IMG/VR virus record: IMGVR_UViG_3300037231_000015
Coordinates: 1-36,626 of that record
DNA from: a virus
DNA length: 36,626 bases
Reading direction: 5' to 3' (one strand)
Part shown: one piece after another, positions 8,319 to 35,629 of the stretch
Numbering within the stretch: position 1 is the first letter of the stretch
Layout: the number at the start of each line of letters is the position of its first letter
Notes under the pieces: generated by a model
Database searches by the model: none
Seen by the model: only the letters and a program-made list of their open reading frames with translations
What the model was told of the DNA's origin: nothing
Position numbers and translations under genes: made by a program

Positions 8319-10154
8319 TCAAACGTTGGTATTGATTACGACCGAAACAGCCGGCGGCGTCGGAATGACGCCCGATTGCTCCAAAATCGCAAGTTGGATC
8401 GCTGTAGGGGTAAAGCTTAAATTGTACGAAATCGCCATTGGCCCCGTGTTGAGCACCCATGCGGTGCCCGGCCCGTACAGGTTTTGCAGTATTTGATTAA
8501 TGGCCGGCGCCGTCGTCGTACAGATGTTGGCGAACGCTTTTGCAAGGATCAATTGTCGGTAAGCCGCGTCGCCAAGCAAGTAGGCGTCGGTCGCATTGTG
8601 TCCCGTGTAGAACGCGCCGCCGACGGGCGGCTTGTTGTACGGCGCCGCGCTCGACCCGGCCGGCGTCCAATCTTGCGCGGGCTGCGATTCGGCTTTGATA
8701 TCGAAACCAACATACGCCGTCGTGTTCGGAATTTGCAGCAAGCGCGACACGCCGACAATGACGCCCCATATATCGAGGCCGAAACCGACAGCCGTGTCAA
8801 CATTCCAAACGAAATTGTAAAAATTGGCGAAGTTCGCCGATTGGTCAATGTACTGATTGAGGTTGTTGCACAACTGCATAATAGTCGGCGAGTTCGCGTA
8901 CTGCGAGATAACCGTCGCCTCGAAATCGAACATGACGCCAACGGCGGGAATGCCGAGCGACAACACAAACGAGACAATGGTGCCCGCGGCAACCGGCGCA
9001 CCCGCGCTTGGGTTTTGTGTTTGCACTTCGCCCGGCGGCACAAACTTTGACGGCGCCGAGCCGATCGCCCCCGGCACGAGGCCGAGCGATAACAGCAACG
9101 TAATTGCATTCGCCTGAGTCATGCCAAATAGGTCGGGCACCGTGATACCCGGCAAGCCCGACGACACGACCACGTTGACGGCTGAGCCGACCGCAACGTC
9201 ATTGCCGGCTGTCGGCGATTGGCAAATGACGTTGCCGGCTATAATCGTGCCGCTCGTCGCGTACGTGATAGTGCCCAAAACCAAACCGACAGCGGCAAGC
9301 AACCCGGGCGCGATTACCGTTATTGACGTGTTCGTAAGATCGGGCACGAGGGCATCGTTGCTGCCGGCGGACACGACGATATCGACAGGCGTGTTAAATA
9401 TAACGGAAGTGCCAGCAACCGGCGATTGACTTATGACTTGACCAACAGGCGCCGCGTTGAATGTCGTCGTTATGGTGCCGACGGTCAAATTGGCCGCGAC
9501 AATATCCGACTCGGCCGCGGCCTGCATTTCGCCGACGACGTTAGGAACAGTGACCGGGGCCAAGTCAGAATTCGGCCCCCATATCACATTTTTAATTATG
9601 ACAGAGCCGTTTCCCGCCACGCGCACGGCCGCCGACCATGTTTGCAAAGTAGCCGCGCTGACGACAGATGATACGTCCACGGTGCCAAGGTTTGCAGTCA
9701 ATCCCGTATTTTGATCGATCGAATAAACCGACGCGTGCGTGCCGGATATCGACAGGTAGCACGTTAGAAAATTCGTGATCGTGTTGTACGGAACGGGAGG
9801 AGAAACCGAACCGCTGAACGTGTGTGCAACTCCGCCATTGTTAACGTATACAATGAACGCGGAAAAAACGCCGCCCGAGCCGGACGGCGACGCACACATG
9901 TAATGCGTGTCGTCCAAACCGAAGCCGACTATAAGCTCGCTGAAGTAGCCCAAGGGCGCCTCGCCGGAAAATCCGACGTACACATTATCGGTTTCCGGCC
10001 CAGAAGCAGTGACCGTCCAAACGGCGCCGCTGCCTGAGAGCGGGAGGCTAGCCGTTAACAGTCCGCTCGCAGCGGTCCAAGTAAAACTCGACCCGTCGGG
10101 AAAAAAGGTTAGTTCGCTCGGGCTCAGTAATGGCGCTTGGCCTTTGAAACTCAT
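8319..10154 (-). CDS. baseplate protein DUF2612 with N-terminal lectin-like and three PASTA domains
   Basis: 611 residues. Residues about 409-611 match DUF2612, a baseplate/tail-tip protein that follows the J-like wedge in many myoviruses and is normally about 200 residues long. Here it is preceded by a beta-rich N-terminal domain (1-197, possibly lectin-like) and three PASTA repeats: 200-264, 268-333 and 336-401. Each PASTA copy has the VP(N/D)(V/L) start, an LGLV-type helix and a QSP/QNPSAG turn before a final VVVS-like strand. PASTA domains bind muropeptides or cell-wall fragments in kinases and PBPs. Starts at an ATGA overlap with the wedge gene. Confidence 0.85.
   Translation of the reverse strand: MSFKGQAPLLSPSELTFFPDGSSFTWTAASGLLTASLPLSGSGAVWTVTASGPETDNVYVGFSGEAPLGYFSELIVGFGLDDTHYMCASPSGSGGVFSAFIVYVNNGGVAHTFSGSVSPPVPYNTITNFLTCYLSISGTHASVYSIDQNTGLTANLGTVDVSSVVSAATLQTWSAAVRVAGNGSVIIKNVIWGPNSDLAPVTVPNVVGEMQAAAESDIVAANLTVGTITTTFNAAPVGQVISQSPVAGTSVIFNTPVDIVVSAGSNDALVPDLTNTSITVIAPGLLAAVGLVLGTITYATSGTIIAGNVICQSPTAGNDVAVGSAVNVVVSSGLPGITVPDLFGMTQANAITLLLSLGLVPGAIGSAPSKFVPPGEVQTQNPSAGAPVAAGTIVSFVLSLGIPAVGVMFDFEATVISQYANSPTIMQLCNNLNQYIDQSANFANFYNFVWNVDTAVGFGLDIWGVIVGVSRLLQIPNTTAYVGFDIKAESQPAQDWTPAGSSAAPYNKPPVGGAFYTGHNATDAYLLGDAAYRQLILAKAFANICTTTAPAINQILQNLYGPGTAWVLNTGPMAISYNLSFTPTAIQLAILEQSGVIPTPPAVSVVINTNV
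8952..9557 (-). repeat. three tandem PASTA-domain repeats
   Basis: Protein-level repeats of about 65 residues, residues 200-401 of the DUF2612 protein. Shared signs are VPNVVG, VPDLTN and VPDLFG at the starts and QSPVAG, QSPTAG and QNPSAG in the middle. They have diverged and are not recent DNA duplicates. Confidence 0.75.
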
Positions 10155-11626
10155 GTGATTACCGCTATGTTAGACGCGCTGATTGTGGGCTCTTGGTCGA
10201 TTCCCATTTGCAGCGACGCATTGCCAACCGAGCTATTAAACCCAATCGTAATCGTGAGTATCGAAACCTCGGTGCCGATCGCTTGAACCGGCCCGAAGTA
10301 TCGAGACGCCAACACTTGAGCGCCGATGCGTTCACGCAGCGAGCCCTGCGCCTGCCCCGTGAACTGCGCAATAACGGCTTGCTGCACAAGGTCCACAATG
10401 TTCGTCGGCAACAACGCCGAGGCCGCAAGCGTGACGGCGAAAAATACCGGCGTGCTCGCGGGATTGATGTAGTTGACCGTGTATTGCGGGACGGGCGCGC
10501 TGTACCCGCTGTTGTCCTGTACGATTTCTGACACGAGTGTCGCACCCGCGCTGCCGATTTGCTGCCCGGTTACGGCCGCGGTTGAATGCGCGGCCGACGT
10601 GCTGACGTTCAATGTTCCCGTGCCCGCCGTGTGAGTGTAGGTGCCGAACGAATTGACGATGCTGTTGGCGGTCACGCCTGCGCCGTTGAGCGTCACGCCA
10701 ACCTCGATAAACCCCGAGACGGTCGAGGCAATCGTGACGACGCCGGCAGCCTGCGAGCCCGTGCCCGAGAACACTTGAGGGTATGCCGCGCCGACGTTCG
10801 TATTTTCCCAGATGGCCGCCGCAACCGCAGCCGCCGCGCCGCCGGTCACGGCAACGTAAATAGATTTCGGCGGTACCGGGTAGCTTGTCGAATTTGGGTT
10901 GCCGTTGATTGCGCCCGAAATGGTTGCGCTCGTGTTGTTCTGCGTCACGAATACGTCGAGGACGTCTGCGACCGCGAAGCACGCCGCGTATACGGCGGGA
11001 ATTGACCCTTGCGCATTGATACCGACGGATTGCTCGCGGCGGTATTCGAACGCGGCCGGCGACTCGACATTGCTGCCCACGGTGCCGGGCGAGACGTTGT
11101 TGACCGACTCCCAACCGTTGATGCTTTGGTAAATGCGGGTCACAGTATTCGCAGGGCACGCGATCGGCCCCGCAACGACGTTGGCGAACGGCAGCGTAAT
11201 CGAGCCGCCAATCGGAATTTCGCCCGCTTGAGTGCATACGTAAATATTGCCGCTCGTATCTTGCACGAGGGCGCCAACAATGATTTCGGTTCCGAGCACG
11301 CCGGTACATAACACGTTGACCGTCGTGGGCACGGCCGGGTTGCGATTCATGAAGTAAATACGGCCGATAGCGTCTTGCATGAAGCCCGTCGCCGTGTCGG
11401 GGTCAATTTGATTGACAAACGTGGCGAATACCGCGTTGGCGTTCGCAATCATTGCCGTTGTTGACGAGCACAATTGCCCTTGCGGCGAGGTAAGTTGCGG
11501 GTTGAGGTTTCCGCCGAACGCTGCGTTATAGTCTTGCTGCACGCCAGCCAAAATGGCGGCCTCTTGCGGCAGCACCAACCCCGTCGGGGTAAATACTGGC
11601 GTCGGTACGTTGGTTGTGTTTGCCAT
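10151..11626 (-). CDS. baseplate J-like wedge protein
   Basis: 491 residues of the baseplate J family (phage P2 gpJ, Mu gp47). Recognisable parts are the N-terminal helical segment with QEAAILAGVQQDYNAAFGG, the central AFEYRREQSV that ends the core, and the C-terminal domain with PVFFAVTL and LRERIGAQVL. Wedges link the central hub to the fibres and trigger sheath contraction. Residues 286-350 are an inserted beta-rich module nearly identical to one in the sheath gene. Located between an endonuclease gene and the DUF2612 gene. Confidence 0.88.
   Translation of the reverse strand: MANTTNVPTPVFTPTGLVLPQEAAILAGVQQDYNAAFGGNLNPQLTSPQGQLCSSTTAMIANANAVFATFVNQIDPDTATGFMQDAIGRIYFMNRNPAVPTTVNVLCTGVLGTEIIVGALVQDTSGNIYVCTQAGEIPIGGSITLPFANVVAGPIACPANTVTRIYQSINGWESVNNVSPGTVGSNVESPAAFEYRREQSVGINAQGSIPAVYAACFAVADVLDVFVTQNNTSATISGAINGNPNSTSYPVPPKSIYVAVTGGAAAAVAAAIWENTNVGAAYPQVFSGTGSQAAGVVTIASTVSGFIEVGVTLNGAGVTANSIVNSFGTYTHTAGTGTLNVSTSAAHSTAAVTGQQIGSAGATLVSEIVQDNSGYSAPVPQYTVNYINPASTPVFFAVTLAASALLPTNIVDLVQQAVIAQFTGQAQGSLRERIGAQVLASRYFGPVQAIGTEVSILTITIGFNSSVGNASLQMGIDQEPTISASNIAVIT
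10577..10771 (-). repeat. shuffled beta-module copy 1 (in wedge J)
   Basis: Residues 286-350 of the J-like protein: FSGTGSQA...VVTIA.TVSG...VG...GAGV...SFGTYT.TAGTGT.NVSTSA. Over 60 aligned residues 41 are identical to the copy in the sheath (20755-20943), and the DNA shares a 19-base exact run at the FSGTGSQA end. Confidence 0.75.
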
Positions 11627-11630
11627 GTTT

Positions 11631-11972
11631 CTATCTCGAATTTCGTAAGTAGTCTAACAGACAAAGAATTAGCATTTCCGAATCGGCTAGCAACCCTAAA
11701 GCTACGTTGCACTTCATGCAAAGCCAACCGCGAAATGCGCCGGTTTTATGATCGTGGTCTAAATGCAATCGTCGTTTGCCGGGCGGCCTCCCGCAGCATT
11801 CGCAGACAGCGGGACATGGGCGCGTCGGCTCGGGCAATCCATCTTTGACTCGTTGGTATACGGTACGAACGGGATTGACCGCATGCTTCGCGTTGCGCGC
11901 GTCTTGCTGTTTACGCTTCAATTCCTTTGAACGTCGGCGGCATGAAGCTAAATTTTGTTCTCGCGTTTGCAT
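11631..11972 (-). CDS. endonuclease VII-like nuclease (free-standing)
   Basis: 113 residues. The C-terminal half has the recombination endonuclease VII signature CECCGRPPGKRRLHLDHDH, then GAFRGWLCMKCN, giving the zinc cysteines (CECC...CMKC) and the His/Asp catalytic site. The basic N-terminal half probably binds DNA. The gene is threaded between two baseplate genes: its ATG overlaps the wedge stop (TAATG) and it ends five bases before J. It is a paralogue of 28920-29588. Local base composition is AT-richer than the neighbours, which suggests acquisition. Likely a homing-type mobile gene. Confidence 0.85.
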   Translation of the reverse strand: MQTREQNLASCRRRSKELKRKQQDARNAKHAVNPVRTVYQRVKDGLPEPTRPCPAVCECCGRPPGKRRLHLDHDHKTGAFRGWLCMKCNVALGLLADSEMLILCLLDYLRNSR

Positions 11973-12328
11973 TACAATGAAACCGTTTGCGTCTGATTGT
12001 TCGCGTCGGTAAAAATAATCTGCCCGGTCGTCTCGCGCGTGGTCGCCGAATACGATTCAATGATGCACGTCGCTGTGACCACAAGGGGCACGAGCAACGC
12101 TTGAGATACAAACTGTTCCTGAAATACGGCGGCCGGGGGCGTCAGTCCGAAAAGCTTGCCGAAGTAATCGACGCCGAGCGTGTCGTCATAGTATACCTCG
12201 CTGAGCACCGTACGGCACGCGCTCGCCACGTCCTGCGCTATCGCGTAGGGGGCAGCCGCAACCGCAATGTTGCCAAACGCGTCAAGCGTCAAGTCCCACA
12301 AATCAACGTCGAGAAGTAGAGTATTCAT
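11972..12328 (-). CDS. baseplate wedge protein, gp25/GpW-like
   Basis: 118 residues: DLWDLTLDAFGNIAVA then YAIAQDVASACRTVLSEVYY and a LGVDYFGKLFG segment, followed by beta strands. This is the arrangement of gp25-like lysozyme-fold wedge proteins, which encircle the baseplate hub and start sheath polymerisation. It precedes J, the usual order, with an endonuclease gene inserted between. Confidence 0.8.
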   Translation of the reverse strand: MNTLLLDVDLWDLTLDAFGNIAVAAAPYAIAQDVASACRTVLSEVYYDDTLGVDYFGKLFGLTPPAAVFQEQFVSQALLVPLVVTATCIIESYSATTRETTGQIIFTDANNQTQTVSL

Positions 12329-12329
12329 A

Positions 12330-12539
12330 TCAAAATCCTATAGTTCCGCCGCCCCCGCCCGAGGGCAGCATGCCTACGCCTCGCGCGCCTATTTGCGGTA
12401 TCGGGTTCGCCGTTGCCTGAGCTAAAGGGCTTAAGAAATTCAAAAGGCAGCTGCCGTTCGCGCCTATCTGCGGTACCGGGTTGTCCGCCGCTTGTGCGAG
12501 CGGCGTAGTTAAATTGCCAAGTGCAACAGCGGTCGTCAT
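12330..12539 (-). CDS. small protein with internal duplication
   Basis: 69 residues made mainly of two copies of an 18-residue unit (TPLAQAADNPVPQIGANG and SPLAQATANPIPQIGARG, 13 identical), then a glycine-rich tail. The family is not recognised. It lies between an unknown structural gene and the gp25-like wedge, with one base separating its stop from the next ATG, so it is probably a small virion component. Confidence 0.55.
   Translation of the reverse strand: MTTAVALGNLTTPLAQAADNPVPQIGANGSCLLNFLSPLAQATANPIPQIGARGVGMLPSGGGGGTIGF
12378..12431 (-). repeat. 18-residue repeat, second copy
   Basis: Residues 37-54 of the small protein at 12330-12539; its partner is at 12453-12506 (residues 12-29). 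Matching DNA can be seen around CCTATTTGCGGTATCGGGTT and CCTATCTGCGGTACCGGGTT. Confidence 0.7.
12453..12506 (-). repeat. 18-residue repeat, first copy
   Basis: Residues 12-29 of the small protein at 12330-12539; the second copy is at 12378-12431. Five of eighteen residues differ. Confidence 0.7.
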
Positions 12540-12542
12540 GGC

Positions 12543-13481
12543 CTATTGCCACAATGATGCGTAACTGAAATTTGCGCCCGGCGTTAAGCCGTAGCCGACA
12601 CCCGAGCCGACGCTCGCCCCGCCGAATGCCCCCGCGCCAACTCCCAACACTGTGACCGGGGTAGAGCCTACGAGGGCCAGCGTTATCGTATTTCCTACGG
12701 GTAGCTCGCCTGTTAAAACTCCTCCTATATATGCACTCGCCGCAACGATTGGCGCCGCGTAGAACAATGGCGCTAATTGTATTTGCCCGCTAACTGTCGT
12801 AGTAGTCAGTCCGAACGGGAACGCCCCGAAACCATTGTTGGTCGGCAAAGAAATTAGCGCACTAGTCAAATAGCTATAGCACTGCATTACGCCGGGCGAG
12901 GCCGCGACACCCGACGAACTTGTTGAATTGGTAATTAAAAAATAAGCGTCAGTCGTTACCGTGCCGGAACTGTTGTTGCTTCGCGAAAGGACAATACCGC
13001 CTGAGTTACATGCTCCGGTCCCCGTGGACCCTTGCTTAAAAAATAGACCAAAGTAGCCTAGGGTTGGATTGTAAATATATCGAGACGCGTACGACGTAAC
13101 TGTAGAAATTACGGCGCCCGTGCCATTCACGGATGAGCGGGCCGTAGTTGTGCCGGTTATCGTGCCCGACCCGTTCGAGCCCGTGCCTACCGTTATCCAC
13201 ATTTGGGGGACTGCCGAAGTCGTAGAAGTACCAAATTCTAGTTTGAAAAATATTGGTGACGTAGATTGCGCGGTGTCATTGAAACGACCTATGACGTAAC
13301 CGCCGGCCAAGCCTACCCCGGGAACCGAACTGCCGCCATTTGTCGTTTGGCCTGTATCTGACGTTTGTGTCAAGCCGACGCCCGAGCCAAATATTGACGC
13401 AATGACTTCGACAACCCACGCGTTAAAGCCCGCAGTAGTCGTATGGTTTAAGACCGTCGTAGTTGTTAGTGTATTCGCCAT
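12543..13481 (-). CDS. unknown virion protein, Ser/Thr/Gly-rich
   Basis: 312 residues, rich in Ser, Thr and Gly, low in charge and with regular beta-strand patterns; no family recognised. It lies between the spike and the small repeat protein, inside the baseplate genes, so a baseplate appendage or fibre-like role is inferred. Its codons use more A/T at third positions than the neighbouring spike and hub genes, suggesting a different history. Confidence 0.65.
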   Translation of the reverse strand: MANTLTTTTVLNHTTTAGFNAWVVEVIASIFGSGVGLTQTSDTGQTTNGGSSVPGVGLAGGYVIGRFNDTAQSTSPIFFKLEFGTSTTSAVPQMWITVGTGSNGSGTITGTTTARSSVNGTGAVISTVTSYASRYIYNPTLGYFGLFFKQGSTGTGACNSGGIVLSRSNNSSGTVTTDAYFLITNSTSSSGVAASPGVMQCYSYLTSALISLPTNNGFGAFPFGLTTTTVSGQIQLAPLFYAAPIVAASAYIGGVLTGELPVGNTITLALVGSTPVTVLGVGAGAFGGASVGSGVGYGLTPGANFSYASLWQ

Positions 13482-13484
13482 GAC

Positions 13485-14852
13485 CTACCCTACCTTAATA
13501 AAAATAGAAACATTCGTAAATGCGCCGCTGACCGAGGCAAGCGTAAATAGAAAAACATCGCCTGCGGCAACTGATGTTGTCCAACCTGAGAGCACCGCGT
13601 TGTCGTAAGACGTGCCGCTAGTAATGGTTGGGGGAACGCCGCCCGTAATGTCGTTGGCGCTCGTCGGCACGGTGCCGGCGGCCGCTTTCCAGATATCTAT
13701 AACACAAGAGCCTGTACCGCCTTCCGTGTATATTCTAACCTCTAAAATCGTGCAGGCGACGTTTGCAACTTTCAAAACATTATTTGTGGGTAGCGTCAAC
13801 GGCGTTCCGGCCGGTACATTTATCCATTGCGCTTGAGGCCCTTGCACTCCCCCGCCGCCGGCTGCGCCATTCGCCGCCGCTGTCAATCGGCCCTGCGCGT
13901 CAACTGTTATGTTGGCGTTTGTGTAGCTCGCTGGCGTAACCGCGGTATTGGCCAACGCCACGGTTGAGCCTGACGCGTACAGCGGGCCGCCCGTAAGCCC
14001 CGTGCCCGTGGCAATCGAGATTGACTGCAAAGCCGTAACAGCGAGCGCGAGCGCGGCGTACGCGGTCGAGGATAGGTCAACGGTCAGCGTGCCGGCCGAG
14101 GTTACGGGGCCGCCGCCCACGATAACACCAACGCCCGGCGTCGATATGCCTACGCTCGTGACCGTCCCGCCCCCGCCGCCGCCAATGAACGAGGAGGCCG
14201 TCACGCTGCCCGAGAACACAGCCGAGGCCGCGGCAATGGTCGTCGTTGTAATGCCGGCCGGCGCGCTCACAGCGCCCGTAAGCGTGGACGTTCCCGTAAC
14301 CGCGAGCGTCGCTTGCAGCGTCGTATTGCCTGTTACCGTGGCCGTACCGCTGACAGTCGTGGCGGGTGCATTTATGGCAACCGTGCCGGGCGAGGTAATG
14401 TTGATGCCCCCGCCGGCCGCAAGGAATTGCATAAACTGCGTCGGCGCCGCGTTGAGAATACCCCCGAAGTAAATGCCGTCTGACCACGAGAAACGCCGAT
14501 TGCTCGACGGGTTGGCCGCGCCCTTGGCAGCGACAACGCCCGTTATATCGCGCGAGGCAAACACGACGACGCCAATGTCGCCGACGACCGGGTCGCAGAT
14601 GATCGCGTTGCCGCCGCCCTGCAATCGGAAGTACGGGCGGTTCGCAATAACCTCGTGCTCGACCGGCGTGTTGGCGCCCGTCACGAGGTTGACCAAAATT
14701 TGCACGTCTACCGTTTGCGCGCCAGTGTTGACCGCAATCACTTCACCGATAGAAACCGTCTGCATTTTGTCGGTTGCGCGCGCAATGATAAAGTCGAGCG
14801 TGTTGTATTCGCTCGCATCGCTAAACGGATTTGATTGGCCTACGGCGCTCAT
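13485..14852 (-). CDS. baseplate spike, Gp138-type N-terminus with fibre-like extension
   Basis: 455 residues from ATG 14852, coupled to the hub gene by ATGA; a longer frame exists but invades the hub. Residues 24-130 fit the Gp138/gp45-like OB domain (IGEVIAVNTGAQTVDVQI, CDPVVGDIGVVVFASRDI, SDGIYFGG). A beta-helical, Ala/Gly/Thr-rich shaft follows. The second half has fibre-type repeats (GTGLTGGPLYASGSTVALAN, ANITVDAQGRLTAAANG) and a final beta-rich domain of about 110 residues. Spikes pierce the outer membrane; a long C-terminal addition past the shaft is unusual. Confidence 0.8.
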   Translation of the reverse strand: MSAVGQSNPFSDASEYNTLDFIIARATDKMQTVSIGEVIAVNTGAQTVDVQILVNLVTGANTPVEHEVIANRPYFRLQGGGNAIICDPVVGDIGVVVFASRDITGVVAAKGAANPSSNRRFSWSDGIYFGGILNAAPTQFMQFLAAGGGINITSPGTVAINAPATTVSGTATVTGNTTLQATLAVTGTSTLTGAVSAPAGITTTTIAAASAVFSGSVTASSFIGGGGGGTVTSVGISTPGVGVIVGGGPVTSAGTLTVDLSSTAYAALALAVTALQSISIATGTGLTGGPLYASGSTVALANTAVTPASYTNANITVDAQGRLTAAANGAAGGGGVQGPQAQWINVPAGTPLTLPTNNVLKVANVACTILEVRIYTEGGTGSCVIDIWKAAAGTVPTSANDITGGVPPTITSGTSYDNAVLSGWTTSVAAGDVFLFTLASVSGAFTNVSIFIKVG

Positions 14853-15784
14853 GCTGCGGGCGCCGCGTTCGGGGGGTACAATTTCATGTCGGTAAACCAA
14901 AGCCCTTGAGGCGTGTTAGATTCCAACAAATGCGTCAGCGGCCCAATTATCCAATTGCCGTCGGCAAGCGTGTTGAGCGTCTTGGGCAACGCGGGGTCAA
15001 TCACAACGTCGCTACCCTGAATCGTTACGGGGCCATTCTGCCGAAATGCCGGATTGAAAATCGAGCGCACATTGAGGTACCCGTTACCGAGCACTTCGGG
15101 GTATCCAACGAGGCCCGATGTTGGCGACAACACCCACGAGGGCACATTCGTACGCGCGACGCCGGCCGGCGAAATGACGAGCAAATTTTGATTTTCAATC
15201 GAGGCATAAATACCCGCGTCCTTACACACGCTGCGCAATTGGTCGGTGAGAGTGCCCGAGTAATAGGCATTCGTGAGCGTGCCGCTAACGCCGTCGTTCT
15301 CGAACGCCATGGACATTTTCGACGCGATATTGTTCACGATATCGGCAACGTTTGCGGTGCCCGGGTATGCCGTCGGGTTTGCCGGCGTGAGTTGATCGAA
15401 GCCCGCCGACTGCGCGTGAACGAACAAGCACACGTCAGGCGCCCCGCTGTAATCCGGGCCTGCCTGATAAATCTGGCCTGAGAAAATGAACGAGAAACCG
15501 TTGCCGCTGTCAGCCTCGATTTGTACAGTGTTGAAAGAGAACTCGGGCTTGCCGCCCTGCACGGGCACAATTGCAAGCGCGTTCATATCTTGTTGGGCCA
15601 TGCCGTAAATTCTAATCGACGCCTCGGGGAATGCCGGCAGCCCTGCGCCCTTGACGGTCACGGAAATGCGCAGCCCTGACACTTGTAGCTGATTCGCGTT
15701 CGTGCCGGGAAACACTGCGTTGCTGTTCGTCAGCGTGAACGTGATACGCAGGTTTTTAACCGTATATGAGCTATTACCCGCCAA
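14849..15784 (-). CDS. baseplate hub protein (gp27/gpD-like)
   Basis: 311 residues. The N-terminal domain has strands typical of a hub (LRITFTLTN, SIRIYGMAQQDMNAL, FSFIFSGQIYQAGPDYSG), and the central part contains TLTDQLRSVCKDAGIYASIE, common in hub domains that resemble tube proteins. It is followed directly by the spike gene and preceded by a plug-like gene, the order expected for a myovirus hub. Confidence 0.75.
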   Translation of the reverse strand: MAGNSSYTVKNLRITFTLTNSNAVFPGTNANQLQVSGLRISVTVKGAGLPAFPEASIRIYGMAQQDMNALAIVPVQGGKPEFSFNTVQIEADSGNGFSFIFSGQIYQAGPDYSGAPDVCLFVHAQSAGFDQLTPANPTAYPGTANVADIVNNIASKMSMAFENDGVSGTLTNAYYSGTLTDQLRSVCKDAGIYASIENQNLLVISPAGVARTNVPSWVLSPTSGLVGYPEVLGNGYLNVRSIFNPAFRQNGPVTIQGSDVVIDPALPKTLNTLADGNWIIGPLTHLLESNTPQGLWFTDMKLYPPNAAPAA

Positions 15785-16154
15785 CGTCGTTTGCCGCGAT
15801 TAAGTCGGCCTCCTCGAGATACAGCAACACAAATTGCGAGCCGAGCCCCGTGTAATACGGCGGCGCCCCGTTGAACGTGGGCGGGCCGCCGTTCGTCGCG
15901 AGCGTATCCAAGAACATAAATTCACCAACGGCGCCGAGGTACTGCCGGTCCTGCAAAATCGGCGTACGATCGAGACAGCGAGCCGTGTTGATGATTGGCA
16001 CGCCGCCCACAATCAAGTCAAAGAAAAGCCCCGCGGCAACCCCGTACTCGTCGGTAATCGGTTGCTTTTGGTATACGGCAATCTGACAACTCTGCCCGTC
16101 GAGGACGATTGTTAGAGTTTGCGAAGGTACTGCACTCAAGGGTATCTGCAACAT
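15774..16154 (-). CDS. baseplate plug-like protein (Pam3 gp18-type)
   Basis: 126 residues starting MLQIPLSAVPSQTLTIVLDG, with FFDLIVGGVPIINTARCLDR and a later GEFMFLDTL and FVLLYLEEADL. This two-sheet pattern is seen in small phage proteins of the plug type, near the hub. It overlaps the hub start by 11 bases. Confidence 0.65.
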   Translation of the reverse strand: MLQIPLSAVPSQTLTIVLDGQSCQIAVYQKQPITDEYGVAAGLFFDLIVGGVPIINTARCLDRTPILQDRQYLGAVGEFMFLDTLATNGGPPTFNGAPPYYTGLGSQFVLLYLEEADLIAANDVGG

Positions 16155-16158
16155 GGGG

Positions 16159-16896
16159 CTAACCTGTAGGCGTCGGCGGCGTGATGGCCGTCAATGCGGA
16201 TTGCTGTACGGCCGTCGTCGGTACTTGGGGGTTGTTTAAACCCTGATTGACCGGGGGTACGGCGCTCGCCGGCTGCGCGTTCGATGTCGGTGTAACTGCG
16301 GTGCTGTACTGCGCGGCGACTTGGTTGATTTCAATGAAGTACAATTCAACGTCGAAAAAGAACGCGTTATCCTTGCCGCGGCGCGAAAGCTCGGCGCGTG
16401 TGACACTCACGTCAACATAGGATTTTTCGGGCGTACGAATCGTGTACAGGTTGATATTTTGTTGCGTAACGAGCACGTCGATTTGCTGCAAGAACGCCGA
16501 CCGGCTCGCCAAGTCGCCGCCCTTGGTCAACGTAACCGACGACTCGAACGGCAGCCCGACGCGGTTGTATGTGCCGAACTGCCCTTGCTGAATCGGGAAA
16601 TTGCCTATGCGGTTTTCCTTGCGCCAACCGAAATCCATAATTGAATCAGGCTCGACGACGAGGTTGCCATTGTCGTCGAACACGCCCCATATCGGCGCCG
16701 ACTGCGTGGCATGCCAAAGCACGTCGGGGTTAGCTGCGAAGCCCAAAACCGGCGGCGTAACGGCCTGCACGAGTAACGAGCGCGCCAACTGCGGGACGCC
16801 CGGCAAGTTTGCGACATTCGGGAATTGCGGAATAGCCACGGTAATAGCGATACCGAGCCCCGCGCCCCAACCCTGCGTAATCAATTGTGCGCTCAT
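16159..16896 (-). CDS. baseplate protein with Dit-like N-terminal domain
   Basis: 245 residues. The core IMDFGWRKENRIGNFPIQQG then FGTYNRVGLPFE, a TLTKGG loop and a YTIRTPEKSY strand match the Dit-like family of myovirus baseplate proteins that connect tail tube and hub. The last 45 residues are a Pro/Thr/Gln-rich low-complexity tail. Position directly after the tape measure supports this. Confidence 0.75.
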   Translation of the reverse strand: MSAQLITQGWGAGLGIAITVAIPQFPNVANLPGVPQLARSLLVQAVTPPVLGFAANPDVLWHATQSAPIWGVFDDNGNLVVEPDSIMDFGWRKENRIGNFPIQQGQFGTYNRVGLPFESSVTLTKGGDLASRSAFLQQIDVLVTQQNINLYTIRTPEKSYVDVSVTRAELSRRGKDNAFFFDVELYFIEINQVAAQYSTAVTPTSNAQPASAVPPVNQGLNNPQVPTTAVQQSALTAITPPTPTG

Positions 16897-16909
16897 GATT
16901 TTCTACCGC

Positions 16910-18505
16910 TCACGATTGGCCAGTATCCGATTGTGAAATAGAGAACTTACGTTGAATTGCGGCCGGCACTTGGTCGGCAACGGCTTTCGGGTCGGCGTTC
17001 GGTGCGTTGACTTGAATCGTTCCGATTGACATGGTTGTCGAATTGCCCGGGGCCTGCACATCGCTACCGGCCACACGACGCGCGCCCGGGGTCGGGCCGT
17101 ACTGTGCGCCCTCGTGCTTGATAATCGCCGCCTCAAGGGCCGCACGATCGGCCGCGGTTAGATGCTCGTTGGCGCCCTTGCCGGTATCTTTCACGAGCGC
17201 GGCAATGTATGCCGGCACGTTGTTGTGGTCGCCGGCCGGCGCGTACACGTTGATAATCTTCGAAATCGTATCGAGGCCCCGAGCCATCTTGGTCGTAATG
17301 TCGGCGTCGAGCGCCTTTAGGCCCTCCTCTTTGCTGCCGAACACTCGGATACCGCGCGCATCCACTTGCTGACCGGGCGCCGAGGCGTGAACGTTGCCGG
17401 GGTTGTTGTTGCGGTACTGTACGTTTTGCGCGTCAACGTCGCCGCCTGCGCGCGCCACGACCGCGGCTTGCTTCGCTGCCGTGTTGCCTTTCGATTCCCA
17501 AATGTCGTTAAGGTCGGCGCCCATTTGGTCGCTACGCGCTTGAGCGTTGGCGTGTTGGTCGTCGAGGATTCGGGCCGCGCCTTTGAAATCGCCATGCAAC
17601 GCCGCGCCAATGGCCGCCGCGGCGCCGCCGATCGCATTGCCCATTCCGACGAAAAGGTTTTTGATAACGACCGCGGCCGACCCAATGAGCTTGAGCCCGG
17701 TTGTAAACTCCTCGCTTTCGGCGTTCACGTCGCCGAATATCTTGAGCACTTGGGTAAGCATGGGCGTGATGGCCGTCAGAATCATCTGACCCGCGGCCGA
17801 TATCTGCAACCCGACGTTGCGCCAATACTGTTGCAACTCGGCGGCTTTCTTGACAGTCTCGTCAGTTACGTCGTTGTCGCGCTCGGCCGTGCGCAGTTGC
17901 TCCTCGCGAATGTCACGTTGCTGCACAAGGTAGTTGATATACCCTTGCGACAGCCCGGCCTGTTTGAACATCGTCACTTGGTATTGGCGGCCGTACTGTG
18001 CCGTCTTGTCGGCAAGCTCCTCGAAAATCTGCCCTTGGTCGCGTAGGTTGCCGTTGGCGTCGCGGATATTCACGCTGCGAGCGCGCAGAAATTGAAGCAA
18101 CTGCGATTGCTCGCCGGTCGTGTTCATTTTCTGGAAATCTTCGGTGAGTTGAGAGAATGCGGCCTGCGCATCGGTTGCACTGCCGCCGGCAAGCTCAACC
18201 GCATTGCCCCATTTGTTCAACTCATGGGCGCTCATGCCGATGTTGGCGGCGGTACGCCCAAGCGCGGCCTCGCCGGCATTCAACGCCCCGAGCCATTTGC
18301 CGAAACCAATGGCCGAGTCAAAGCCGAGCATGAGTACGGCGACTTGCCGGCCCACGTCAACGAGTGATTTGGTTATGTCGTCCGCGGCGGCCTTAGACTT
18401 GCGCGCGGTTTCTTTTGTTTCTTTCTCGGCCGTCTCGCGGCCCTTTTTGTAATTGGACGCGTCGAGCCCGAGGAGGACGACTAGACTGTCGATTACCGTT
18501 GCCAT
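16910..18505 (-). CDS. tape measure protein with C-terminal lysozyme-like region
   Basis: 531 residues, short for a tape measure. Residues 1-90 begin with VLLGLDASNYKKGRETAEKE and a long charged helix; the middle is helical with hydrophobic patches (about 276-303). Residues about 362-460 contain YRNNNPGNVHASAPG, GSKEEGLKALDADI and IINVYAPAGDHNNVPAYI, a pattern of structural proteins with lysozyme/transglycosylase-like fold. It would set tail length and help the tip cross the cell wall. It lies after the tail chaperone pair, the standard order. Confidence 0.85.
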   Translation of the reverse strand: MATVIDSLVVLLGLDASNYKKGRETAEKETKETARKSKAAADDITKSLVDVGRQVAVLMLGFDSAIGFGKWLGALNAGEAALGRTAANIGMSAHELNKWGNAVELAGGSATDAQAAFSQLTEDFQKMNTTGEQSQLLQFLRARSVNIRDANGNLRDQGQIFEELADKTAQYGRQYQVTMFKQAGLSQGYINYLVQQRDIREEQLRTAERDNDVTDETVKKAAELQQYWRNVGLQISAAGQMILTAITPMLTQVLKIFGDVNAESEEFTTGLKLIGSAAVVIKNLFVGMGNAIGGAAAAIGAALHGDFKGAARILDDQHANAQARSDQMGADLNDIWESKGNTAAKQAAVVARAGGDVDAQNVQYRNNNPGNVHASAPGQQVDARGIRVFGSKEEGLKALDADITTKMARGLDTISKIINVYAPAGDHNNVPAYIAALVKDTGKGANEHLTAADRAALEAAIIKHEGAQYGPTPGARRVAGSDVQAPGNSTTMSIGTIQVNAPNADPKAVADQVPAAIQRKFSISQSDTGQS

Positions 18506-18508
18506 TCG

Positions 18509-18805
18509 CTACGCCTGTTTGTCAATCTCGCGTCGGTTGTGAGCGTCCACACTGATAACCTCAGCTAGATTGTAAGCGTCGCGAACGCCGTAGACCGACT
18601 GCAATTCATGCAGCGTCGCCTTACCATCTGAGACGATCATACCGATTAGCGGCGGTAGGTTCAAATAATCAACGAGACGGCCGTTGCGGGCTGCGAACAG
18701 AGCCGCCCCTAAGTCGGGGTTGCGACGGCCGGCGAAAAACCCGTATGAAGGAACAACAGCGCCTTGTGCAGCGTCAGAAACGTTTTGATTTCCTCGACGC
18801 AGCAA
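18509..18805 (-). CDS. tail assembly chaperone, frameshift-extended part (GT-like)
   Basis: This frame has no convincing start of its own. Its conserved part, DYLNLPPLIGMIVSDGKATL followed by HELQSVYGVRDAYNLAEVIS, is the usual C-terminal extension of myovirus tail chaperones. It is in the -1 frame of the preceding gene and overlaps it across a slippery GGGTTTT at 18742-18736. Slippage there would fuse about 140 residues of the first frame to about 75 of this one. The fusion protein would help assemble tube around the tape measure. Confidence 0.75.
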   Translation of the reverse strand: MLRRGNQNVSDAAQGAVVPSYGFFAGRRNPDLGAALFAARNGRLVDYLNLPPLIGMIVSDGKATLHELQSVYGVRDAYNLAEVISVDAHNRREIDKQA

Positions 18806-19155
18806 TTGGGGCCGGCGACGATATGCTGAGGCTCGCCCGAGGGCTTGCCCTTGGTATCATGGTGCTGATACCGCGCCTGCGCGAGCATTTCGTCGAGGAG
18901 CGGCTTTAAAGCGCCGTACGGGGCCTGTAGCAAGGCCGTGACCCCGAAGCCTGCAAGGCTCGCCATGCCGGCGCCAAGGGCACCGTCGGGTAGCGAGGCG
19001 CCCGAGGCGGCCAACGCGAGGAGGGCACGCAATGCCCAATCCTGCCCGCTGTACGCGTCCATTTCGGTCAATATGAAAATCTTGCCGTTGTCGCGTTCGC
19101 CCGGGGCCTCGGAACGAGTGCCCGGAATCGTCAACGTCTCTTTGCGTCGAGCCAT
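18709..19155 (-). CDS. tail assembly chaperone, short product (G-like)
   Basis: 148 residues: a start rich in charged residues (MARRKETLTIPGTRSEAPGE), the segment KIFILTEMDAYSGQDWALRA, and a helical remainder ending in EIKTFLTLHKALLFLHTGFS. Located between the tube and tape measure genes, where chaperones of the lambda G type occur. Its last nine codons lie beyond a -1 slippery site; most ribosomes should stop at TAG 18711-18709. Confidence 0.85.
   Translation of the reverse strand: MARRKETLTIPGTRSEAPGERDNGKIFILTEMDAYSGQDWALRALLALAASGASLPDGALGAGMASLAGFGVTALLQAPYGALKPLLDEMLAQARYQHHDTKGKPSGEPQHIVAGPNCCVEEIKTFLTLHKALLFLHTGFSPAVATPT
18736..18742 (-). other. -1 ribosomal frameshift site GGGTTTT
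   Basis: In the zero frame the bases read G-GGT-TTT, an ideal X-XXY-YYZ heptamer; slipping back one base gives GGG-TTT pairing and continues with TTC GCC GGC. About ten bases downstream, GCCG...CCCC GACTTA GGGG CGGC can form a bulged stem that includes the zero-frame stop and could stimulate slippage. Confidence 0.75.
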
Positions 19156-19199
19156 GTTTCAAACTCCTCGGGCGTGGTGTGCCCGCCGGCTGCGGCCGG

Positions 19200-19631
19200 T
19201 TAAACGTTAGTGACGGGCGTCGATTCCCAAGTAATCTCGAACGTCCGACTTTCGAAAATCTTTTTGGCGTCGGGTATCGGCTTGAAGCGAGTCAACGAGC
19301 CGTTGTTGAGCGTCCACGCCTTGCCGAGCGAGGGCGACCAAATCGAGCCCGAGGCCGTAAGGTCGTCCTGCGCCGCGATCAACGCGCCGTTCCATTGGTC
19401 GAAAATGTCGCACGCCGGGCTGTCGCTCTGAATGTGGACGAGCATCTTGACGAGGTAGGGCGTGAAGCCGCTCGACTTTTTGCCGTCAACGCCGATTTTC
19501 GCCTCGACCGGGGACACGTCCTCGGAACCGAATGCGTCGTCGGTCGCGTAGCCCTGAATGATGACAGGCGCGGCGAACACGTCCGGGATGGTCAGGACGA
19601 ATTCGCTATTGGCTGAGGTAAGGGTTGCCAT
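19200..19631 (-). CDS. tail tube protein (DUF3277-like)
   Basis: 143 residues. The pattern IQGYATDDAFGSEDVSP, then a GVDGKKSSGF loop and a long hydrophobic strand LVKMLVHIQSDSPACDIF, followed by FESRTFEITWES at the end, is that of DUF3277-type tubes of myoviruses. The gene directly follows the sheath gene, as expected, and precedes the tail chaperones. The protein polymerises as hexamers inside the sheath. Confidence 0.8.
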   Translation of the reverse strand: MATLTSANSEFVLTIPDVFAAPVIIQGYATDDAFGSEDVSPVEAKIGVDGKKSSGFTPYLVKMLVHIQSDSPACDIFDQWNGALIAAQDDLTASGSIWSPSLGKAWTLNNGSLTRFKPIPDAKKIFESRTFEITWESTPVTNV

Positions 19632-19647
19632 GTTCTAAATGCTCCGA

Positions 19648-21411
19648 TTATTGAACGTCGACCGAGGACATGGACACTTTTTGGATCGATCCCCCGTCGG
19701 TATACCAAAAATTGATGGTCGGCGAACCGCGACCGCCGCGCACGATCGCGCCCGGGTCGAGAATTTGCAGATACCATCCCGTGTTCTGAATTGTGGCCGT
19801 TGCGCCCGAGTCGCCCGTCGCGTTGTTGAGCGCGGCAGACTGCGTACCGCTCAGCGACACGCCCTTGACGATCGAGCCGAAATACAAGCCTTGCTCAATG
19901 GGGCCGGTCGGGGGCGAATTCTGAGTTGCCGCATTGCCGACGAGCGCGTTGCGAATCAGGTTGTACCCGCGGGTCACATACGGCACGCTCGGCACGGTTG
20001 CGAGTAGCGTCATGATTGCCAACTGAAATTGGCTGTTCAAGTAAATCTGATTGATGTACGAATCGGCCCATTTGAACGCGCCCGAAATCTGCCCGGGCTG
20101 ATTCTGCACGAACCACTGATTGGCGGTTGCAAACGCGGCGTAGCAATTGTACCCGTTGGCAACGAGGTTGTTGTACACGGTTTGGTCGGTCACTTGAGCC
20201 GCGAGGCCCGCTTGACCGCGGAATGCCGCGACGGTGCGGCCGTTCTGTTGGTTGAAATTGATCGAGGCAGCAATCGCCGTTTGGAACGCGGCAATTACGC
20301 CCGTGCCGCTGATATCGTACACGGGCATGACGCCCGTATCCTGCGCAGCGTTGACGATGTTGCCGAACGAGCCCGTTGCCGTCGGCGACGTGGTCGGCGA
20401 TTGGTCGGAATCCTGCGCAACGTACAAGTAACGATTGAGCGCGCCCGGGGTTTGGCACCACGCGGCGAACGCCTCTTTGTTGCTCAAGCTCTGTTCGTTC
20501 ACGGTCATGAACGTCGCCCAATTCTGCGTGGCTGCGACAACTTGCGCCATGAGCGCCGCGGGAGTTACCGCAACGGCACCCTGCGACGTGACGGCGCCAT
20601 TGGCCGCCGTGAAATTCAAGCCCTGACTGAGCGCGCCATTGTCGCCAAAGCCAATCGTTGACGTGCCGCCGGTAACGGGGCTCGTAATCAGGAATGCCTC
20701 GCGCAGCGTATCGTAAGTGACGAGCGGCGCTAAAGTAACATCGGCCGCGCCGAGCGACACGGTTGCGCTCGTGCTCACGTTCACCGTGCCGGTACCCGCG
20801 GTCGTGGTGTACGTGCCGAACGATAGAATGGTCGCCGGGCCGTCCACGCCCGCGCCGGTCAAAATGTCGCCGACATGCAGTTCGCCGCTGACAGTCGTGG
20901 CAATCGTAACGACGTTAGTAGCCTGCGAGCCCGTGCCCGCGAATACGTTGCCGGTCGTCTGTAGGCCAGTCTGCAACAGCGTCGCGGCATTCGTGAAGCT
21001 CGTCGCGCCCGACAAATTGATTGCCGCCGATACGACTTGCACGCCGTCAATCGTAAGCGTGAGCGTGCCGGAAAGCGCAATCAACTGCGCGAGGGTCAGA
21101 GTTGCAACGCTGCCGCCGCGCAGATACGCCGCGACGTTCGTTGTGTTGTACTGAGCGAAATACAGCGTGCCGGGTAGCACGGTGCAATTGATAAAGCCGG
21201 CGAAATACACGTTGGCGAGAAGCGTCTCGGCAGCGTTGGGGCCGAACCAATCCGACACGTCGGGCGCGCTCGCGAAAGCCTGTACCGTTCCAATCGGTAT
21301 CGAGGTATCGCTCGTGAGGTAAACCGAATTGAGGCTTAGCGGGTTGCCGCCTGCGCTCAATACGCCCGGAATTACATCTGCGAGGGCCGAGGCCGGTATT
21401 GATGCTGTCAT
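19648..21411 (-). CDS. tail sheath protein (DUF3383-like)
   Basis: 587 residues. The DUF3383 pattern is visible in LYLTSDT-type N-terminal strands (SVYLTSDTSIPIGTVQAF), DVSDWFGPNAAETLLANVYF, an APLVTYDTLREAFLITSP strand region, and the C-terminal domain with TRGYNLIRNALVGNAATQN and GSIVKGVSLS. Sheath subunits contract to drive the tube through the envelope. Residues 157-219 are the beta-module also found in wedge J; it interrupts the first domain. The start has AGGACAAAACGAC upstream and a separate promoter-like sequence. Confidence 0.85.
   Translation of the reverse strand: MTASIPASALADVIPGVLSAGGNPLSLNSVYLTSDTSIPIGTVQAFASAPDVSDWFGPNAAETLLANVYFAGFINCTVLPGTLYFAQYNTTNVAAYLRGGSVATLTLAQLIALSGTLTLTIDGVQVVSAAINLSGATSFTNAATLLQTGLQTTGNVFAGTGSQATNVVTIATTVSGELHVGDILTGAGVDGPATILSFGTYTTTAGTGTVNVSTSATVSLGAADVTLAPLVTYDTLREAFLITSPVTGGTSTIGFGDNGALSQGLNFTAANGAVTSQGAVAVTPAALMAQVVAATQNWATFMTVNEQSLSNKEAFAAWCQTPGALNRYLYVAQDSDQSPTTSPTATGSFGNIVNAAQDTGVMPVYDISGTGVIAAFQTAIAASINFNQQNGRTVAAFRGQAGLAAQVTDQTVYNNLVANGYNCYAAFATANQWFVQNQPGQISGAFKWADSYINQIYLNSQFQLAIMTLLATVPSVPYVTRGYNLIRNALVGNAATQNSPPTGPIEQGLYFGSIVKGVSLSGTQSAALNNATGDSGATATIQNTGWYLQILDPGAIVRGGRGSPTINFWYTDGGSIQKVSMSSVDVQ
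20755..20943 (-). repeat. shuffled beta-module copy 2 (in sheath)
   Basis: Residues 157-219 of the sheath: FAGTGSQAT.VVTIATTVSG...VG..LTGAGV...SFGTYTTTAGTGTVNVSTSA. 41 of 60 residues are identical to the copy in wedge J, with a shared exact DNA run GCCTGCGAGCCCGTGCCCG on the + strand. Confidence 0.75.
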
Positions 21412-22464: not shown

Positions 22465-22976
22465 TTGTCCACTACCTCATAATCGGGGGCTCGTTGCATG
22501 TCGCCCGAGTCAACGAGCGGCTTGTCAAAGCCCTTAATTTTCACCGTCAACGGCGAGTTCGCCGGGCTCGACCATTGTGCAATGGCGTTTTCCAAATCGT
22601 CGCGCATGTCCTGCCCGAGTAGCGCGAGCGCCTTGCGGCCGTCATAGCCCGTTGCAATGATAGCCTTTCCGAGCTTGGCGCCCCATTCTTTCGATTTTTT
22701 GGCAATCGTTGTGCGGAACGCGGGGCGCGCGGGGGCGCGCGACGTGCCGTACTCATCCCAAAATGCCGCCTGCGCAATCGGTATCGAGGGCACAACCGTC
22801 GGCGTCGCCTTGCTGCCGACAGCCTTTAAAAATCGCGCGTTGGTTCGCTCGGGGTACCGCGCACCCTCAAGGAATCCCATACGCAGCACGCCGCCGCTCG
22901 TAATCTTTTTCTCGATAGCTCGTAATGCTATGTCGAGCTTTAGGCCGCCGACGACACGGTTGTTAGAAGCCGCCAC
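22461..22976 (-). CDS. tail-completion protein, HK97 gp10-like
   Basis: 171 residues from GTG 22976, chosen because the longer frame overlaps the DUF4054 gene by 164 bases while this start overlaps its stop by only 14 and has GGGGCGG upstream. The core is FWDEYGTSRAPARPAFRTTI, the motif of gp10-like tail completion proteins, and a helix GYDGRKALALLGQDMRDDLE. The end (PLVDSGDMQRAPDYEVV) is also typical. It probably helps finish the tail or neck. Confidence 0.75.
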   Translation of the reverse strand: MAASNNRVVGGLKLDIALRAIEKKITSGGVLRMGFLEGARYPERTNARFLKAVGSKATPTVVPSIPIAQAAFWDEYGTSRAPARPAFRTTIAKKSKEWGAKLGKAIIATGYDGRKALALLGQDMRDDLENAIAQWSSPANSPLTVKIKGFDKPLVDSGDMQRAPDYEVVDK

Positions 22977-23712
22977 GACCGCCGCCCCAAGGGCCAATGC
23001 CGAAGCCTGCGAGCGGGTTGTACGCACCCGCGGGCGCGGGGGAAAACAGGGCCGTACGATACCGGGCCGTGTAGGTCCAATAATCGGCGCCGTATTTTGT
23101 CTGCGTGAAATAAGCTTGATTCGCATTGGCCGGCGCTTCCCATTGCGCGGACACGCTCACGTCGCCCTCGCTAGCGTCACTGATACGGCCGACCACGCCG
23201 AGCGGCGGCACAACGTTCGGTATGCCGGGCACAATCATCGTTTCGGCCGTGACCGTCTGCGGCGCACCGTTCACGGTATAAGGGCCGAGGCCGCCCGAGC
23301 CAACGGTAATCGTTGTGCCGGGTACAATCAGTGACCCGCCAATGCTCGGGCCGTCGTACAGAACATTGCCGACAGCGAGCGCCCCAAGCGTGACCGCCGA
23401 AACGGTAGCCGTGTTGCCGGCAATCGCCACGGTGCCCGAGAACGTCGGGTTGGTCACGCCTGCGTCATTCAATCCTTGGTGAATCGCCGCAATATGCGCG
23501 GTCAGCAAGTACAACAAGAACATGCGTTGATTGGCGTCCTTGACGCGCGAGCAACACGAGTTGTTGAGCAAGAACGTTGCGCCCGTGAAATCGTTGGACA
23601 ACGACACGGGGTTGATGCCCGTAAATTCCGGGTACAGTGCCAAGAATTCGGCCGCCGAGAAATCGACGATACCGAATACGGGTTGAACAACTGCACACGG
23701 AACTACGGGCAT
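22963..23712 (-). CDS. DUF4054 head-tail connector with inserted beta-module
   Basis: 249 residues. The DUF4054 adaptor pattern is split in two: residues 1-88 (FSAAEFLALYPEF, then FLLYLLTAHIAAIHQGLN) and residues 172-249 (VGRISDASEGDVSVS, then QTKYGADYWTYTARY). Between them, residues 91-160 form a copy of the module seen in J, sheath and cement. DUF4054 proteins are normally about 130-170 residues long, so the module is an addition. The protein should form the connector ring beneath the portal. Confidence 0.8.
   Translation of the reverse strand: MPVVPCAVVQPVFGIVDFSAAEFLALYPEFTGINPVSLSNDFTGATFLLNNSCCSRVKDANQRMFLLYLLTAHIAAIHQGLNDAGVTNPTFSGTVAIAGNTATVSAVTLGALAVGNVLYDGPSIGGSLIVPGTTITVGSGGLGPYTVNGAPQTVTAETMIVPGIPNVVPPLGVVGRISDASEGDVSVSAQWEAPANANQAYFTQTKYGADYWTYTARYRTALFSPAPAGAYNPLAGFGIGPWGGGRGGF
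23233..23442 (-). repeat. shuffled beta-module copy 3 (in DUF4054 connector)
   Basis: Residues 91-160: FSGTVAI...TATVSAVT.GALAVGNVL...GPSIGG...IVPGTTI...GGLGPYTVN. It is a diverged relative of the copies in J and sheath, with the same FSGT start, L-x-VG and GTYT/GPYT landmarks. Confidence 0.55.
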
Positions 23713-24197: not shown

Positions 24198-24782
24198 CTA
24201 TGGTGTAAATTTTGCTGTCGTCGAAACAATCGCCAACTGTCCCGGCGGGTTCTGCGACACAACGAACCATGGTGTAAGTTCGCAATTCGCAGCCGGCCCC
24301 GAAACGGCTGACCCATCAACTAGTGAAGCATAAACCGAGTTGCCATACAATGCGCCGCCGGCAAACCGCAGCCAAAAATTCCCGCGCTTGTGCAGCGTGA
24401 CCACGAGGCCCGGGCGAATACGAAGCCCGCCAGCCGGCGTAACCGTCGGGTCGTAAAACTCCCACGTCCAAGATGCTTGAGGCCCTGCGAGGCTGCGAGG
24501 GCCGCCCACGACCCCCGCCCCACTCATAGACCTAAAAGGTATGATGACCCCTAGCGTGTCCGATGCCTCAACGCGCGTGTTGTTCACAACCCCGGTCGCC
24601 GAATTAGCCCACCCGAATCGACCTTGTATGCTTCCTGGGTTATTCGACCGCCAAGCCCCGGGTCCTGCTGTGGCAGAAGCAAAAGGGCTTCTAATCTCTA
24701 AATTTTGAGCAATCGGTGAACTAGCCCACATTCCTTCGTAGGCTCCGTTCGGTATACTTTGCGGCGCGTTACAGCAACTCAC
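24198..24782 (-). CDS. structural cement (gp24-like) protein, start uncertain
   Basis: 194 residues from GTG 24782; the same frame is open further upstream, but there it is antisense to an HNH gene and looks random. The body fits gp24-like capsid cement proteins: AYEGMWASS near the start, a WANSATG strand, GVIIPFRS, IRPGLVVTLHKRGNFWLRFA, and LTPWFVVSQNPPGQLAIVST at the end. No good ribosome site precedes the GTG. The 5' end abuts the HNH gene head to head, so the original start may have been displaced by that insertion. Base use is AT-richer than in adjacent head genes. Confidence 0.65.
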   Translation of the reverse strand: MSCCNAPQSIPNGAYEGMWASSPIAQNLEIRSPFASATAGPGAWRSNNPGSIQGRFGWANSATGVVNNTRVEASDTLGVIIPFRSMSGAGVVGGPRSLAGPQASWTWEFYDPTVTPAGGLRIRPGLVVTLHKRGNFWLRFAGGALYGNSVYASLVDGSAVSGPAANCELTPWFVVSQNPPGQLAIVSTTAKFTP

Positions 24783-24840
24783 GAGACGTACTCGATATTT
24801 TACCGGGGAACCCTGCAAACGAGGACATATTGCCGAACGA

Positions 24841-29588: not shown

Positions 29589-29619
29589 ATGAAAATTATA
29601 GCCAAACCTGACAGACGTG

Positions 29620-35386: not shown

Positions 35387-35629
35387 ATGCGCGATACAAT
35401 TCGTAAATCTGCCAACCGTTACGGCAGGCCCCGCAAATCCCCGCGGGAATGTTTTTTAGAGGACGAAAACATACGTCTCAATAATCAATTGAACTCGGCG
35501 CGAGAACAAGCTCTAACCGACCAACAACGCATAGACGATTTCATGCTTATCTGCTTGACACCCACAGATACTACCTGTAGTATTCAAATCGTAGGCTCTG
35601 AAACGCGATTTATACAGGAGATTAAGTAA
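35387..35629 (+). CDS. small protein upstream of repeated promoter module
   Basis: 80 residues from ATG 35387, with AGGAG (35374-35378) eight bases upstream; ATG 35381 is too close. Residues 1-50 are basic then coiled-coil-like (KSANRYGRPRKSPRECFLED, RLNNQLNSAREQALT). The last 28 residues (from MLICLTPTDT to the end) are encoded by the first copy of the repeated promoter module, so the original C-terminus may have been replaced. Not recognised. Confidence 0.5.
   Translation: MRDTIRKSANRYGRPRKSPRECFLEDENIRLNNQLNSAREQALTDQQRIDDFMLICLTPTDTTCSIQIVGSETRFIQEIK

Follow-up and report, generated by a model that had tools for sequence, protein, structure and literature searches.

A Thr/Gly-rich module of four virion genes in an environmental phage, predicted to be an insertion-tolerant beta-domain of the particle surface

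We analysed an IMG/VR phage record (IMGVR_UViG_3300037231_000015, positions 1 to 36,626; this whole stretch of 36,626 nucleotides is termed the window), in which an earlier note had noticed a segment common to a baseplate wedge J-like protein (hereafter J) and the tail sheath protein. The segment proved to be a module of about 60 residues, five copies of which are spread over four virion genes. As judged by sequence comparison, the copies are homologous, were inserted into their host proteins at several sites, changed in occupancy repeatedly, and within this phage clade are biased toward outer proteins. We consider it quite probable that the module is a promiscuous, insertion-tolerant, plug-in beta-domain of outer virion proteins, and the function predicted for it is that of a virion surface module. 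All five copies and their four host open reading frames (ORFs) lie on the minus strand; the remaining genome is unremarkable for a contractile-tailed phage in the broad Bcep781/E217 group.

Module copies within the window

When the whole J and sheath proteins were compared by BLASTP, one significant shared stretch was obtained (J 285–371 versus sheath 156–234; 48 of 87 residues identical, E=4e-11), with an ungapped core in which 41 of 62 residues were identical (J 286–347 versus sheath 157–218). The DNA of the two cores, at 10586–10771 within J and 20758–20943 within the sheath gene, i.e., slightly narrower than in the earlier note, was colinear and gap-free with a constant spacing of 10172 and an identity of 66%, as assessed by nucleotide alignment. 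The 19-mer GCCTGCGAGCCCGTGCCCG occurred exactly twice in the window (plus-strand positions 10749–10767 and 20921–20939; 0 expected in shuffles), and encodes a conserved GTGSQA motif on the minus strand. These results bear out the earlier observations that one module, including an exact 19-base run, is shared by the two genes. Chance similarity through low complexity was rejected upon the BLASTP E-value, the 19-mer shuffles and the profile E-values given below.

The J gene (10151–11626; 491 residues, one module) matched the baseplate wedge family phrog_6 (E=7.5e-48), and its model matched the baseplate wedge proteins of E217 (8eon_q), Pa193 (9b45_j, E=1.3e-26) and XM1 by Foldseek; a Pfam scan of J gave two chance-level matches only, neither to a baseplate family. 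The sheath gene (19648–21411; 587 residues, one module) belongs to DUF3383 (PF11863, E=6.6e-106) and phrog_205, and its model matched the E217 sheath (8env_A, E=3.4e-28, TMt 0.77). The two hosts were, as had been supposed, unrelated, and shared no other stretch.

An iterated profile detected three further copies in the window (E 1e-11 to 1e-14), and the view of the module as an oddity of two genes was rejected. One copy (23233–23442; independent E-value, i-E, 1e-13) includes an additional LYDGPS...VPG loop and lies in a neck-region structural protein of the virion that belongs to DUF4054 (22963–23712; 249 residues); the PF13262 match of this protein falls in two stretches, and the protein also matched phrog_302 (E=3e-18). 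The other two are arranged in tandem (copy 1 at 26691–26879, i-E 2.5e-14; copy 2 at 26508–26687, i-E 5.5e-13) in a capsid cement/minor head protein (26385–27296; 303 residues) that matched PF23982 XM1_gp53_minor_capsid (E=1.5e-16), PF22758 Phage_cement (E=3.5e-9) and phrog_2122 (E=8.6e-30). A second cement-like protein (24198–25013, minus strand) was without a module; it has 271 residues against a homologue median of 202, and a long N-terminal extension.

AlphaFold2 models of the whole J and sheath proteins were read through their DSSP strings. The sheath model had a mean pLDDT (predicted local distance difference test score) of 89.9, with values of 92–97 in the module; the J model had a mean of 81.5, and about 85–94 in most blocks covering the module. 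Both module regions were predicted to be all-beta with an identical order of strands, long, short, short and long (J, E285–305/312–314/322–327/337–355; sheath, E157–176/183–185/193–198/208–225).

Insertion and descent of the module

We asked whether the module is an insertion or an integral structural part of the sheath and J folds, the two segments having come to resemble each other by convergence upon a similar beta-hairpin. In favour of the latter, the module lies in both hosts between a helix on its N-terminal side and a strand on its C-terminal side, and the low-complexity Thr/Gly/Val composition could inflate the similarity; homologues of both J and the sheath nevertheless lack exactly this segment, a single profile spans copies of both hosts with E-values to 1e-27, and the module occurs at three different sites in J. 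Convergence or an integral fold was ruled out by the module-free relatives, and we give it practically no credence. The statement that the module interrupts a known domain in both hosts was upheld by these relatives and by the empty site in E217: alignment with the E217 sheath, gp31, placed the sheath module wholly within a single gap between residues 153 and 154.

Cultured relatives of the sheath and J aligned on either side of the module. Searches of cultured phages with the module by tblastn returned none or single partial matches, a result in which the low-complexity filter may hide copies, and for this reason the match lengths of the relatives were used instead; most spanned about 1.45–1.49 kb for the sheath and about 1.15–1.21 kb for J, which is too short for a module, and most cultured relatives were therefore judged module-free. 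J relatives with 76–84% identity showed a clean empty site: their sequence there is GAAYQTAAGSAGATLVSE, and that of the window is GAAYPQV-module-GQQIGSAGATLVSE. More distant J proteins were also without the GSAGATLVSE piece (e.g., L278: NVGCAYNGNTS-VTVADPS), and the module-free near relatives were consequently read as deletions; it looks as if the module was removed from them and a GSAGATLVSE-like linker left over. The DUF4054 protein likewise had a clean empty site in two relatives, L043 and L078 (NDGAGNITPPLGIVGRI / LQGTNDGAGNITPPLGIVGRI). The cement modules follow a conserved N-terminal body, and a module-free cultured homologue has 167 residues versus 303 here; the C-terminal end past the modules is short and could not be aligned with the module-free homologue, and this insertion may be internal or near-terminal.

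The module was found at three sites among 45 non-redundant J proteins: near residue 286 in the window clade, near 237 in L284 and L287, and near 380–397 in L281 and L293. Sheaths held none, one or two (tandem) modules, and in the lineage of L227 the module was at a slightly shifted place. All 19 of 19 related environmental phage records matched the module profile, and which of the four genes bore the module varied among them in a mosaic fashion. On backbone trees built without the module columns, the minimum number of occupancy changes was 6 for J (3 of them forced by starred branches) and 10 for the sheath (9 forced). The tree of the modules themselves grouped by host gene (24 changes versus 66 in shuffles), from which it follows that most copies descend with their own host gene. 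The J modules from sites other than 286 fell elsewhere in this tree, and those at site 286 branched beside or within the sheath modules (support 84/96); a single J clade was not rejected (AU, approximately unbiased, test on a reduced set, p=0.10).

Frequent changes of occupancy would be expected of a near-neutral passenger, i.e., a module tolerated in outer loops and re-inserted by ectopic recombination without any selected function, and the apparent loss of the module from some J relatives of the window clade, which keep the GSAGATLVSE-like linker that module-free outgroups lack, would fit this as well. We think a passenger unlikely, though, for the reading frame and the Gly/Thr core have been kept over deep divergence with nonsynonymous change well below synonymous change, the cement modules form tandem pairs conserved across relatives, and there would be a cost in about 300 extra residues across four genes.

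The earlier note had suggested recent copying between virion genes within this one phage, i.e., a duplication in this phage lineage that carried the sheath segment to J or vice versa. In its favour are the 41 of 62 identical residues together with an exact J/sheath run of 20 nt, longer than synonymous recoding yields (P=0.003). There was also an exact run of 35 nt between the J module of the window (10586–10771) and the sheath module (1501–1686) of L006, a close relative, a length reached in 0 of 300 recodings (maximum, 32); the longest exact run between the J module of the window and other J modules was 18 nt. Codon constraint or the multiplicity of comparisons could contribute to such long runs. 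Orthologous copies were nonetheless closer than the J and sheath pair of the window, which were 66% identical: identity was 77% between the J copy and that of L003, and about 84% between the sheath copy and those of L023 and L155. J and sheath pairs from the same genome were no closer in protein sequence than pairs across genomes (mean identities of 0.59 and 0.58), whereas codon agreement was 0.51 within versus 0.44 across genomes, part of which may be accounted for by shared base composition. The synonymous divergence (Ks) of J from the sheath, 0.69, was no smaller than that between the nearest orthologues (J, 0.67; sheath, 0.29–0.58). Recent intragenomic duplication was rejected as the main story upon the orthologue distances and the comparison of same- and cross-genome pairs, and we regard it as very improbable; the tracts of 20–35 nt are suggestive of occasional short ectopic exchange.

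In our reading, the module is a self-contained beta-domain of 60–62 residues that occupies loops in those virion proteins which are expected to face outward. We propose that new insertions would come about when virion genes that bear the module recombine ectopically, in phages that are related or infect the same cell. Insertion may be tolerated because the chain, to judge from the strand pattern, should enter and leave via two adjacent long strands.

Carrier proteins, composition and predicted role

Homologues of each structural gene of the window were counted among the fetched loci. The module was borne by 25 of 29 cement proteins, 60 of 83 sheaths, 25 of 75 J proteins and 20 of 71 DUF4054 proteins; rare carriers were the head protein phrog_1912 (4/81), the terminator phrog_1876 (4/76), the tail fibre (2/82) and the DUF2612 protein (1/68). 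It was found in none of the homologues of the tail tube (0/83), tape measure (0/100), portal (0/17), major capsid (0/44), protease (0/22), chaperone (0/59) and hub (0/75) proteins; the genes behind these zeros lie on the same fetched stretches as the carriers. The pattern probably reflects display on the outside of the virion, and agrees with published architecture, in which additional sheath domains sit away from the tail tube (PMC9230969) and the cement protein gp24 of E217 makes protrusions on the capsid (PMC10329688).

Thr, Gly and Ser made up about half of the residues in the module copies. Lys plus Arg amounted to 0.19% versus 3.3% in the host backbones, Trp to 0.08% versus 1.2%, and Cys to 0.05%; Phe/Trp/Tyr together were at half the level of the host backbones, and the best conserved positions were mostly Gly and Thr. 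A dedicated sugar-binding site is unlikely since charged and aromatic residues are so scarce, and this composition favours a compact, neutral knob on the surface over a classical sugar-binding platform of aromatic residues.

These data bear upon the proposal, made in the earlier note, that the module is a specific adhesin, a carbohydrate- or cell-binding domain giving the particle multivalent binding. Many outer positions and tandem copies would provide high avidity; one tail fibre bears the module; the occurrence of the module in a secreted GH5 cellulase (two copies) and in a GEVED/fn3 protein (five copies), both described below, is compatible with a surface role; and Ig-like domains at like places have been proposed as cell-surface sugar binders (PMC9230969, PMC10385173). 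Opposed to this are the near absence of Lys, Arg and Trp and the shortage of aromatic residues in general, the lack of a match to any carbohydrate-binding family among the 41 module copies scanned, and conserved positions which offer no candidate binding set. An adhesin role is plausible, and we hold it to be a possibility of the lesser sort.

The surface module that we prefer would instead form an accessory layer, its copies covering the particle all the way from the head to the baseplate. It would serve for weak contacts of a generic kind, be it with cells, polymers or particles, or for spacing or shielding, rather than act as a specific receptor-binding domain. Several points weigh against it. 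Sampling was biased, as are the carrier rates in consequence, since the module, the sheath or J had served to fetch the loci. A capsid protein elsewhere (L338, PF25209) bears one copy, which limits the absence from inner and shell proteins to the present phage clade. Surface exposure is taken from the type of host protein and the published sheath and cement architecture (PMC9230969, PMC10329688). The module tree was built from 62 columns, with many forks unresolved and the finer branching unreliable. Finally, a module poor in charged and aromatic residues could possibly be a passive spacer or a near-neutral passenger.

A wider family and its counterparts

Wider loci were fetched with a generic consensus as bait, for which there were at least 462 matching loci in viruses and 45 in bacterial genomes; an earlier scan of bacterial genomes with patterns of the close clade had given no match. 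A profile made from window-clade copies alone matched 188 ORFs in 120 of the 124 fetched loci, with E-values down to 3e-35, and it was because this profile independently matched nearly all of them that the bait-derived loci were accepted. The 188 ORFs represent about 40 groups of host proteins, and the wider host families include head closure Hc3, adaptor-like, head decoration, cement, sheath, J, terminator, head protein and tail fibre. Among them were a GH5 cellulase (L332) with an N-terminal signal-peptide-like stretch and two module copies, and a GEVED/fn3 protein (L357) with five copies in tandem. Cement proteins bearing the module were also present on Herbaspirillum and Bosea contigs (L337 and L345). 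In a Nitrospira genome bin, a protein that we assign as J-like from a reading of its sequence only (L335:2969–4597) apparently has two modules at separate internal sites, residues 143–201 and 342–401.

A set of 41 module copies was scanned against Pfam and gave no consistent family; the best weak match (E=0.0066, in one copy) was chance-like, and none of the Ig-type families was matched up to E=1. A profile of these copies obtained a single chance-level match among PDB chains (E=0.33). Foldseek of the J model against a viral library returned J-type proteins and was uninformative on the module alone. No description of the domain was found in the open-access literature. The module did match two PHROG profiles, phrog_21413 (unknown function; about positions 400–465 of 595) and phrog_38233 (tail fibre protein; about 560–620 of 896), and by virtue of those positions copies are already buried, unnamed, in both. 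The two are whole-protein clusters, which give no domain definition and do not state that it is shared across virion proteins, and matches to phrog_38233 can mislabel module-bearing proteins as tail fibres.

The closest known system is the promiscuous Ig-like domains of phage virions (Fraser et al. 2006, as related in PMC10385173), found for example on T4 Hoc (PMC10385173) and on sheaths (PMC9230969). Like the module, these are small beta-domains added to or set within a number of outer virion proteins that are unrelated to one another; they pass between phages, relatives can do without them, and they are located away from the tail tube. Occurrence in several unrelated virion proteins with absence in relatives of those proteins was also what was found for the module. 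The Ig beta-sandwich has about seven strands and 80–100 residues; the module has about 62 residues and four predicted strands, as read from DSSP strings. Unlike the Ig-like domains, the module is without a Pfam match, Ig-type families included, is inserted in internal loops, is very Thr/Gly-rich, and in the collections searched was almost confined to uncultured environmental phages and prophages. BACON repeats of crAss-like phages (PMC6949934) resemble it in being tandem beta-domains in proteins of phages, with further occurrences in proteins of bacteria; the module differs in having no Pfam BACON match and in occupying several virion genes and internal sites. The closest solved relatives of the host proteins are the sheath, wedge and cement proteins of the myophages E217, Pa193 and XM1, and the E217 sheath and wedge are without the module. 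We suggest that the module, apparently undescribed, works like the phage Ig-like domains and is a counterpart to them.

Some other features of the window were recorded. The tail/baseplate protein of the DUF2612 type (8319–10154, minus strand; 611 residues) contains, before the DUF2612 part, three PASTA stretches (PF03793, E=4.9e-32). Since PASTA domains are familiar chiefly from penicillin-binding proteins and kinases of bacteria, this virion may have borrowed a second surface domain in PASTA. Two endonuclease VII-type genes lie among the structural genes (11631–11972 and 28920–29777, both minus strand) and have a common stretch of 86 nt with 74% identity (11719–11804 versus 29098–29183); possibly they are mobile or homing endonucleases. 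A direct repeat of 92 nt (35542–35633 and 35820–35911; 95% identical, 278 bases apart), each unit of which has an ATG at its end and TTGACA-like and TAGTAT-like boxes inside, is probably a duplicated promoter/leader.

We judge the odds to be slightly better than even that the module represents an undescribed and widespread family of 60-residue beta-domains, the environmental counterpart of the phage Ig-like domains, which would occupy the head, neck, sheath and baseplate of one particle, be shared with secreted bacterial enzymes, and give the virion as a whole an evolvable outer coat that cultured relatives are without. The findings suggest that a promiscuous domain of virion proteins, one that Pfam does not list, is common among environmental phages and almost lacking among those cultured phages that were searched. 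Its occupied and empty site pairs, at up to 84% identity of the host proteins, provide material for asking what roles extra virion domains have.

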